Part shown: positions 34,410-36,228 of the stretch, in pieces
Layout: the number at the start of each line of letters is the position of its first letter
Numbering within the stretch: position 1 is the first letter of the stretch
Assembly (NCBI GenBank): GCA_903930735.1
Contig: CAIYZT010000104.1
Coordinates: forward strand, 1 to 50,937
Direction of reading: 5' to 3'
DNA from: an uncultured Paracoccaceae bacterium
Lineage (GTDB): Bacteria > Pseudomonadota > Alphaproteobacteria > Rhodobacterales > Rhodobacteraceae
DNA: 50,937 bases
Notes under the pieces: model-generated
What the model was told of the DNA's origin: nothing
The model's input: the letters and a program-made list of their open reading frames with translations, nothing else
Database searches by the model: none
Program-made: the position numbers and the translations under genes

Positions 34410-34487
34410 CTCGCTTTTCCTATCTGGCGAAAAGTCCCGCGCCCCGATCGTCGGCAGCCTATGGGTCTTTCCCTCTATGGACACTCT

Positions 34488-34515
34488 ATCTGGGGCGCGT
34501 GAGGGGGGCTGTCAA
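34488..34515 (-). promoter_or_regulatory. Heat-shock (RpoH/sigma-32)-like promoter of lon
   Basis: On the minus strand TTGACA (34515-34510) is followed after 14 bp by CCCCAGAT (34495-34488), close to the sigma-32 pattern CTTGAA-N11-16-CCCCATNT. The TTGACA would also serve a sigma-70-type -35, but no good TATAAT lies 17 bp away. Predicted leader about 70 bases. Confidence 0.55.
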
Positions 34516-34827
34516 CCACCCTGCCCCATCACATTTGCCCCAAATCATGCGCCCCCGGCGCGGCAGGGGCAAGGCAGGAACGCACAAAATTGCCGGGAAT
34601 ATGGTGACAGAATGTTTCCCGATGCACCCCGGCGCATCACCAGACGCCTCCCTCCCCTCTTGTGGGGGAAGCTTTGGGTGCGCCCCCCCCACCCGAACAC
34701 GTCTCACCCCCTGCCGCGTCCTGCACCTCGGTGGCCATGCTCGCGCCGATCACCATCACTGACGAATACTTGTCGTCGTATTTCAAGATCGCGGATATGC
34801 CGGATATCGAACCTTCGGAGCCGCCCT
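34516..34827. other. Intergenic region between lon promoter and the DUF4236 gene
   Basis: 312 bases between divergent genes. It must hold the promoter of the DUF4236 gene, but I see no convincing -35/-10 pair. It contains a run of eight Cs near 34683 and a small CCCC/GGGG inverted repeat near 34654. No convincing gene or RNA is seen. Confidence 0.5.
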
Positions 34828-36030
34828 ATGACACTTCGTTTCAGACAGACTTTCACTCTTTTTCCTGGGGTCCGCATCAATGTAGGGAAACGAGGAATTA
34901 GCACCAGTATTGGCGTCCCCGGTGCAACCGTAAACATTGGTGCGCAAGGCATTCGCGCCACAGTCGGAGCACCGGGAACGGGCCTGCCTTTCAGCACCCT
35001 TGTTGTTCCATTTGGCGGTTCAGTCGGGCCATCAAATGGACCGGGCAATCCGGCGCCCGGATATTCCCCCAGACCAATTGCAACACCTGCATTCGGAAAC
35101 AGCCCGGCCTCTGCAAAGGTTTACATGCCTAAATCCGGCATGAATGAGATTTCTAGCGCTTCTGTCGAGGTGCTTACCAGTTCCTCTTTGGTCCCTTTGC
35201 GCGACATGATTGCCAAAGCCCGTGAACAACAGACGCAGGTCAAAAATGATCTGAAGGATGCGCGAGATGATCAGTCGAAACAAAGAATGGAACTCAACCG
35301 CCGCAAGGGCAGCCTCTTTCGTTGGTTTTATCGGAAGTGCATTGCGGAGTTGGAGGTTGCGCTTCCTGTCACTGAAGCCGAGATACTGCGGCTATCTGAG
35401 TGGGAGGGGACTACCAAGATTGCCGTCGCCTTCGAAGCCGGGGACGCCGCTCAGCGGGCTTGTGCGGTTATGATTCGCTCCTTTGAAGGGCTAAAACAGT
35501 GCCAAAAGCGTTGGGACATAACTTCGCACCGTTCGACCAATCAGTTTGCCGAACGGACCGTCGCACACCGTGCAATTGACAGACAACCAGTCAGTTTGGA
35601 ATTTAGTTCAAACGACCTAATCCAATTCTCAGGGCGTGCCATGCGATTCGAGAACGTCAATGGCGACGACATTATGATTTACCCCGGCGTTGCAGTGATC
35701 CCGCGTGCGGATGGCGCTTTTGCTTTGGTGGACCTGCGAGAGTTGGAAACCGAAGCTAACATAACAGCGTTTCACGAAATGGAGGGCGCAGCCAGCGACT
35801 CAAAGGTAATTGGCAGCACTTGGGCCAAGACGAACAAGGACGGATCACCCGACAGGCGGTTCAAGGAAAACTTCCAAATACCAATCTGCCAGTACGGGCG
35901 AATTGCTTTCCGCTCGCAGTCGGGCGTCACCGAGGAATATATGTTTTCAAATTCTGACGCTGCATACGCTTTTGCAGCAGCAATGGAGGCGTATCAGAAA
36001 GCGCTCGCCGAGACAGAACTTCCCTCTTAG
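34828..36030 (+). CDS. DUF4236 domain protein with unrecognised C-terminal region
   Basis: A protein of 400 residues. Residues 1-60 are a DUF4236 domain (MTLRFRQTFTLFPGVRINVG, then GISTSIGVPGATVNIG and GTGLPFS), a short domain found at the N-terminus of many accessory proteins. A Ser/Pro-rich linker runs to about 105, a charged helical segment (about 115-165, probable coiled coil) follows, and the remaining 230 residues form a mixed domain (LIQFSGRAMRFENVNGDD, DLRELETEA) that I do not recognise. Codon use is visibly AT-richer than in its neighbours, suggesting recent acquisition. The start is the ATG at 34828 with a GGAG site; the longer frame from 34477 covers the intergenic region. No partner gene is adjacent. 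Confidence 0.8.
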   Translation: MTLRFRQTFTLFPGVRINVGKRGISTSIGVPGATVNIGAQGIRATVGAPGTGLPFSTLVVPFGGSVGPSNGPGNPAPGYSPRPIATPAFGNSPASAKVYMPKSGMNEISSASVEVLTSSSLVPLRDMIAKAREQQTQVKNDLKDARDDQSKQRMELNRRKGSLFRWFYRKCIAELEVALPVTEAEILRLSEWEGTTKIAVAFEAGDAAQRACAVMIRSFEGLKQCQKRWDITSHRSTNQFAERTVAHRAIDRQPVSLEFSSNDLIQFSGRAMRFENVNGDDIMIYPGVAVIPRADGAFALVDLRELETEANITAFHEMEGAASDSKVIGSTWAKTNKDGSPDRRFKENFQIPICQYGRIAFRSQSGVTEEYMFSNSDAAYAFAAAMEAYQKALAETELPS

Positions 36031-36099
36031 TATTTGCGCTGACGAAAACGTCAAATGATGGAAGTACAATAGACCTGAACCGTTTCTGCGACCCGTAGG

Positions 36100-36117
36100 G
36101 TGCGTGATTTCACGCAC
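36100..36117 (+). terminator. Hairpin downstream of the DUF4236 gene
   Basis: A perfect 7-bp stem GTGCGTG/CACGCAC with a 4-base loop ATTT, 70 bp past the stop. No U-run follows, so its role as terminator is tentative. Confidence 0.4.
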
Positions 36118-36193
36118 GGCCTTCTGCACGGTCAAAGTCCCCCAATCCTTTCTATCCGGTTAACGCCAACCCCCAGCCCCTTGATCCCAAACC

Positions 36194-36218
36194 AAAACGA
36201 AAAAGTCCAGATCTGGAC
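36194..36218 (-). terminator. Likely intrinsic terminator after tgt
   Basis: A perfect 14-bp palindrome GTCCAGATCTGGAC at 36205-36218 can fold as a 5-bp stem with a GATC loop and is followed on the minus strand by TTTTTCGTTTT. It begins 10 bp past the tgt stop. The short stem makes the strength uncertain. Confidence 0.65.
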
Positions 36219-36228
36219 GCCTGCCCCC

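Follow-up and report, generated by a model that had tools for sequence, protein, structure and literature searches.

A DUF4236 gene inserted alone between lon and tgt belongs to a family carried by prophages, islands and plasmids

By sequence, the gene described here is a member of PHROG 17982, a family to which PHROG gives no function; its product aligns over residues 1–397 with profile positions 1–385 of 390 (E = 4e-150). The match is full length, and this copy differs in being chromosomal, with no prophage around it. The Pfam family DUF4236 (PF14020) shares only residues 3–55, or 14% of the protein (E = 5.8e-19; 68.8 bits against a curated cut-off of 27), and for many of the phage hits and of those within the order the match is confined to that part. 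An earlier note on this DNA, made by reading the sequence, had placed DUF4236 at the N terminus, as the profile does, and had found no family for the C-terminal two thirds. The latter holds for Pfam and NCBIfam, which return chance-level matches there, and fails for the PHROG profile, which spans the whole region, and less surely for the fold, which is predicted to be PH-like. The bacterial PH domains (PF08000 and related families) likely share a PH-type fold with residues 206–396 of the model. The PHb structure has a helical hairpin and forms rings, according to PMC2817789; compared with the PHb proteins as described there, the domain modelled here is about 200 residues long with insertions, its hairpin precedes the PH-like domain whereas theirs is C-terminal, and a ring would be hypothetical.

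By kind, the gene is prophage, satellite and plasmid cargo, and it is a new candidate within that class. With the defence hotspots of prophages and satellites (PMC9122126 and PMC9519451) its relatives share small, high-turnover cargo loci with defence neighbours at some of them. Rousset et al. described P2/P4 hotspots by the cos site and Vibrionaceae hotspots between cI and the integrase (PMC9122126), whereas DUF4236 genes lie beyond tail fibers, near integrases, or after P. DUF4236 is absent from the main texts of that paper and of Vassallo et al. (PMC9519451). We found no published function or test of a DUF4236 protein in the open-licence full-text literature; the single paper there that names DUF4236, PMC8049487, places it together with UmuC and YedK in an insertion interpreted as a Salmonella prophage remnant.

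The locus lies in a stretch of 50,937 nucleotides, referred to below as the window (Table 1). The gene is an intact open reading frame of 400 codons from an ATG to a TAG stop. The mechanically called frame is longer because it happens to stay open upstream to an ATG at 34477; we place the start at the methionine at 34828, where the aligned homologues begin (that of L059 begins three residues earlier) and which a GGAG precedes by 7 nt. The gene has 53.3% GC and 54.6% GC3, compared with 62.2 ± 2.2% (z = -4.0) and 75.3 ± 3.9% (z = -5.3) in the 37 other mechanically called window ORFs of at least 150 amino acids. Both values are lower than in each of those 37, making it the most AT-rich gene of the window; by eye it had been noted as AT-richer than both neighbors. 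The own genome holds a single copy and one DUF4236 match overall, with no second DUF4236 gene elsewhere. A promoter search returned 0 sites, and no T-run terminator was found on the + strand to the right of the gene. The hairpin structure noted on that side corresponds to one 18-nt inverted repeat with 8-bp arms, GTGCGTGATTTCACGCAC, which occurs once in the genome even with up to 2 mismatches allowed; the 113 nt from 36028 fold slightly better than shuffled sequences (z = -1.9; 5 of 200 shuffles as good). A 30-nt stretch containing the repeat (36088–36117) has a 97% copy elsewhere in another genome of the family (G035), and is perhaps a mobile or regulatory repeat.

Table 1. Features of the DUF4236 gene and its surroundings (window coordinates)
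Feature	Position	Strand	Basis
DUF4236 / coiled-coil hairpin / PH-like gene, PHROG 17982 family, 400 aa	34828..36030	+	ORF and profile match
GGAG, likely ribosome-binding site	34817..34820	+	read directly
DUF4236 domain, residues 3-55, predicted six-strand beta module	34834..34992	+	profile and model
Linker, residues 63-92, low confidence, probably disordered	35014..35103	+	model
Predicted helical hairpin, residues 119-195; hydrophobic in most distant relatives	35182..35412	+	model and hydropathy
C-terminal PH-like domain (predicted), residues 206-396	35443..36015	+	model, pLDDT 88 (alone, from residue 198)
Family signature STWAKTNKDGSPDRRFKEN, residues 330-348	35815..35871	+	alignment A3
Approximate inserted segment, unmatched here in sister genome G001	34621..36138	.	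DNA comparison
Inverted repeat GTGCGTGATTTCACGCAC near right edge of insert, single copy in genome	36100..36117	.	repeat search

Comparison with the sister genome (G001, the single other genome of the genus compared) delimits the foreign DNA. Homology on the lon side ends at 34620 and resumes on the tgt side at 36139, which defines a foreign piece of about 1.5 kb with one plausible gene. The gene had been described as lying between lon and tgt, and it does so alone, in a segment that the sister genome lacks. Neither another plausible gene among the ORFs nor, by reading, a recombinase-like ORF was found within the insert, around which only short or imperfect direct repeats were seen in the search for att sites or terminal repeats; the nearest tRNA is 3.3 kb distant. 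An intact prophage or island in the window is ruled out by this content of one plausible gene. For the leader of the gene (34621–34827) all matches were short, spread over 71 of 394 genomes with its own among them, and a 31-residue peptide read from it gave chance matches only. Just within the left edge, positions 34645–34680 resemble, by reading in several genomes, a repeat that is common between genes in this family. At the corresponding place the sister genome carries different DNA, including, by reading, an Rhs-core-like tail; that tail falls in L068:1-230 and L221:2390-2560, where two contigs overlap.

The interval was surveyed across the family by searching 120 genomes for each gene and entering by hand the 91 with both on one contig. 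In 87 of these lon and tgt are on one strand, and in 84 of the 87 they are separated by less than 20 kb. The gap is below 500 bp in 38 of the 84 genomes, 500 to 1200 bp in 11, 1200 to 3000 bp in 29 and at least 3000 bp in 6; the 46 intervals of at least 500 bp differ in gene content, and that of the window runs from 34410 to 36228. Of the 45 other intervals of at least 500 bp, 44 were examined (L069–L112) and none contained a relative of the DUF4236 gene among its ORFs (best chance match E = 0.12); these ORFs are greedy longest frames, some of them likely wrong-strand artefacts. A Pfam scan of 10 ORFs from lon-tgt intervals assigned families to 5, all of them unrelated, and none to the other 5. 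Because the interval varies in size and its occupants differ, we regard lon-tgt as a permissive spot, with the DUF4236 gene as one of many occupants. At this variable point of the chromosome, the insertion comprises one gene. That it is a housekeeping gene of the genus, present throughout at the same place, is ruled out by its absence from the sister genome and by the order-wide search, in which 389 of 390 genomes gave no full-length match with at most 4 first-look candidates scored in most of them.

The order-wide search returned a match in 21 of the 390 genomes, full length in the own genome only. In the other 20 the match spans 54 to 104 query residues, mostly DUF4236, and in two of them (G098 and G358) the matched part is a piece of the C-terminal region; since at most 4 first-look candidates were scored in most genomes, distant relatives with the same architecture could be missed in these counts. 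No match was found in the sister genome. The closest relatives, 70 to 73% identical, are on two Rhodobacteraceae contigs and one metagenome-assembled genome labeled only Proteobacteria (L001–L003), with shortened relatives in L009–L011. Five Enterobacterales genomes (L004–L008) encode proteins 63 to 65% identical, and proteins 59 to 65% identical are found in enterobacterial prophages close to attachment sites, in ssrA islands, on a conjugative plasmid and on many viral contigs, more distant ones reaching down to 24%. Among 5426 complete E. coli genomes, 121 have a close DNA relative of the enterobacterial form (query L005); the match spans 80% or more of the query in 120, and all 122 places are chromosomal. 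Distant full-length relatives are on plasmids of Xanthomonas, Azospirillum, Roseomonas, Cupriavidus and Pantoea. Although 2541 plasmid records match the window protein, only 11 do so over at least 80% of its length. Two plasmids carrying relatives are typed as conjugative.

The positions of these relatives point to mobile cargo. Each of the 5 E. coli regions examined has the gene between a tail-fiber assembly gene and host DNA, antisense to the late genes, with a DUF2971 gene intervening in 4; around one of these copies a complete lambdoid prophage is present at icd. Of 22 viral-contig loci, 16 have relatives of lambdoid J, Stf or Tfa in the available flank, some of them weak or short matches. 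A tyrosine integrase adjoins the gene in L017 and L007 and is one ORF away in L018; a serine recombinase adjoins it in L059 and, by reading, in L008, and is near it in L020. The copy in L133 immediately follows lambda replication protein P, and those in L005–L007 follow ssrA at a distance of about 290 nt. In L002, the metagenome-assembled genome labeled Proteobacteria, the gene has on either side an att-like exact repeat of 21 nt, 20 nt of which are the 3′ end of a tRNA-Glu. This minimal att-flanked unit of about 1.6 kb (L002:2548-4230, with tRNA-Glu(ttc) repeats) has the DUF4236 gene as the sole gene recognized and is without an integrase. L001 has the left repeat (20 nt, 95%) inside a 153-nt leader that is 87% identical to the leader of L002; a search without a positive control found further copies of the left end of L002 in 0 of 390 genomes. 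Broken copies occur in L009, L010 and L011 and in E. coli, where an IS3 element interrupts one (L240), which together with the mobile-element positions gives a gain-and-loss pattern of mobile cargo. The gene combines patchy presence with close relatives in mobile-element contexts, and the reading of the segment as a foreign piece is borne out by its outlying composition, by a full-length match confined to its own genome among 390 from the order, by its absence from the sister genome and by homologues on prophages, islands and plasmids.

The full-length architecture is conserved in close homologues, in which the whole 400 residues are conserved as a single unit. An AlphaFold2 model from 18 sequences (pLDDT 79.7, pTM 0.64) predicts an N-terminal module of six beta strands, a linker that is disordered over residues 63–92, helices at 119–161 and 169–195, and a C-terminal mixed domain. 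Structure searches with the helical hairpin matched generic coiled coils. Modeled alone, residues 198–400 reach a pLDDT of 88.1 and a pTM of 0.84, and Foldseek returned many PH-type domains among the best matches to them, all weak (best E = 0.013, none at or below 0.001); the top 20 also contain LolB, flagellar-rod and RnlA chains. When the top chains were compared again, all 50 rows listed were chains that we take to be of PH, PTB, FERM-F3 or GRAM type. The best Z in this comparison was 6.2, with an rmsd of 4.3 over 105 aligned residues, a level at which the match may reflect no more than a common arrangement. In sequence searches, residues 101–400 gave no match to any Pfam PH family up to E = 10, the only hit being a chance match to Hyr1 (E = 0.17); Pfam gave no PH match in the relatives' proteins, and a search of the PDB for relatives by sequence reached a best E of 0.43. 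From the models, the C-terminal domain is likely a PH superfold with large insertions, as yet unproven. Weak viral-structure matches to other DUF4236 proteins gave no functional clue.

The predicted domain carries a signature, T-W-x3-N-K-x-G-x2-D-x-R-F-x2-N (residues 331–348), whose residues T331, W332, N336, K337, G339, D342, R344, F345 and N348 do not vary among the 18 rows of A3, even in rows with as little as 21% identity. L028 was excluded from alignment because its given range has two stops. The hairpin region is strongly hydrophobic in the most distant relatives (L183, L185, L188 and L116; KD19 peak 2.2 to 2.6), which makes membrane association of the family plausible. The window protein has no strongly hydrophobic segment (KD19 1.15) and offers only an aromatic and basic loop, LFRWFYRK.

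Some relatives stand beside genes of known defense systems. We scanned 20 hand-picked neighbor proteins from 16 loci with PADLOC models; at E ≤ 1e-10, 8 of the 20, from 6 of the 16 loci, matched and 12 fell below that level. The copy on a Serratia plasmid stands beside Gabija genes gajA (1.1e-211) and gajB (7.2e-133), with an IS110 element between, and that in a Klebsiella indica ssrA island has a Lamassu-type LmuA neighbor (8.1e-24) with ABC-3C domains. The DUF2971 neighbor of the E. coli copies (L062:13461-14201) matches the PADLOC candidate PDC-S31 (E = 1.6e-16), the candidates PDC-M62A and PDC-M62B are beside a Pantoea relative of 30% identity, and PDC-S49 is also among the matched neighbors. 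The match in L065 is to a trypsin domain and holds at the domain level only. These matches are suggestive without amounting to an enrichment test, because the scan had no control set. The window protein itself matched 0 PADLOC families up to E = 10 in the 2023 library. Two unrelated copies are closely preceded by a gene for a trypsin-like or TPR-serine protease (L065:8335-9327 and L238:2956-4863), and a nuclease-type gene lies downstream of the copy in L238 and in L114. In the open-licence literature searched, the one paper to name DUF2971 is a genome reannotation.

The relatives ride phages, islands and plasmids and are sometimes beside anti-phage defense genes, so the product may be a small defense or exclusion factor. 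Our best explanation, to which we assign a probability of about 0.42, is that the window holds a horizontally acquired accessory gene from a family of phage, island and plasmid cargo that excludes a competing phage or plasmid by way of a scaffold at the membrane edge. From its context, we infer that the protein is most likely a membrane-associated phage-exclusion factor. We speculate that it would be a cytoplasmic or membrane-edge protein whose DUF4236 beta module and PH-like domain, spaced by the helical hairpin (which in distant relatives is hydrophobic and of membrane type), would build a scaffold that might close into a ring as other bacterial PH proteins do. Upon sensing part of an arriving phage or plasmid, or a disturbed membrane, such a scaffold would shut out the competing phage or plasmid, and the element that carries the gene would profit. 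More tentatively, the DUF4236, helical hairpin and PH-like architecture could define a new stand-alone superinfection-exclusion family, with a membrane-edge PH-type module that senses phage entry, spread among Alpha- and Gammaproteobacteria by prophages, ssrA and tRNA islands and plasmids, down to the 1.6-kb unit of L002, which would need a recombinase acting in trans to be mobilized.

Whatever its relatives do, the copy in the window might be a decaying relic, former mobile cargo now functionless in this genome; this would be compatible with either function in the relatives, and we consider it rather doubtful. Purifying selection acts on the gene in its relatives, with a dN/dS of 0.06 to 0.14 in 7 of 9 pairs (2 were not computable, and dS exceeds 1 in 4 of the 7). 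The branch of the window copy, at 0.39, is the longest of its group, compared with 0.04 to 0.18 for L001–L003, in a tree with several weak deep forks and with its long branches flagged. At 10 positions where 14 homologues are otherwise invariant the copy has a different residue, among them P322A, at which it differs also from 17 diverse homologues, and its leader is, by reading, unlike those of L001–L003, L009 and L011. With its fast branch and different leader it may be drifting, and the broken relatives add to the case for decay. Against decay, the frame is fully intact, a Shine-Dalgarno-like GGAG is present, the signature is kept and dN/dS relative to L003 is 0.08, although dS is saturated.

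Somewhat unlikely, in our view, is that the family is lysogenic-conversion cargo outside defense, an envelope- or DNA-damage-stress helper for the lysogen that perhaps acts with TerB-type membrane stress modules. The nearest called ORF upstream of the copy in L168 encodes a TerB protein (30.5 bits), and the relative in L182 (L182:5001-6680) has a C-terminal extension with a TerB match below the cut-off (19.5 bits compared with 24.4; E = 0.0012). An SRAP peptidase gene lies near L018 and, by reading, near L012 and L032; UmuC is annotated near L115 and read near L032; and a DinI-like pseudogene is near the copy in L064. In the presumed Salmonella prophage remnant mentioned above, DUF4236 is accompanied by UmuC and YedK. 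These SOS-type neighbors are about as frequent as defense neighbors, but they are frequent prophage cargo in general and joint action is not required to explain them, and the PADLOC matches in 6 of 16 loci weigh against this reading. Since both gene types occur, the neighbor context does not separate a defense from a stress role, and the earlier suggestion of a stand-alone defense or stress factor finds support there, of both kinds, and nowhere else.

A function internal to the phage, in virion assembly, packaging or lysogeny control, retained after the surrounding prophage decayed, is improbable. The full-length PHROG family would fit it, as would the relative in Microcystis phage Mea-Yong924-1 (37% identical in two pieces covering 66% of the query; relatives in two Microcystis phage records match in two pieces), which stands directly after the large terminase gene. 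Positions vary among phage types, however, and in the 5 E. coli regions the gene is read against the direction of the late genes; copies are also on the two conjugative-typed plasmids and in ssrA and tRNA islands, and no other plausible gene remains within the window insert. A toxin, as the earlier note had ventured, or an injected effector is very improbable: a small conserved N-terminal domain ahead of a long C-terminal part, the Rhs-like tail read at the same place in the sister genome and a VgrG-like gene read close to L004 would suit one, but the 400 residues are conserved as one unit among close homologues and we saw no adjacent immunity gene, secretion marker or catalytic motif.

DUF4236 proteins are common on plasmids and phages. 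If the full-length family is a defense or exclusion factor, a common annotation would start to gain a function, a PH-like module would be added to the parts of bacterial immunity, and the presence of a lone gene between two housekeeping genes would be explained. If the family is conversion cargo only, the locus would still be a clear case of single-gene traffic between alphaproteobacterial and gammaproteobacterial mobile elements.
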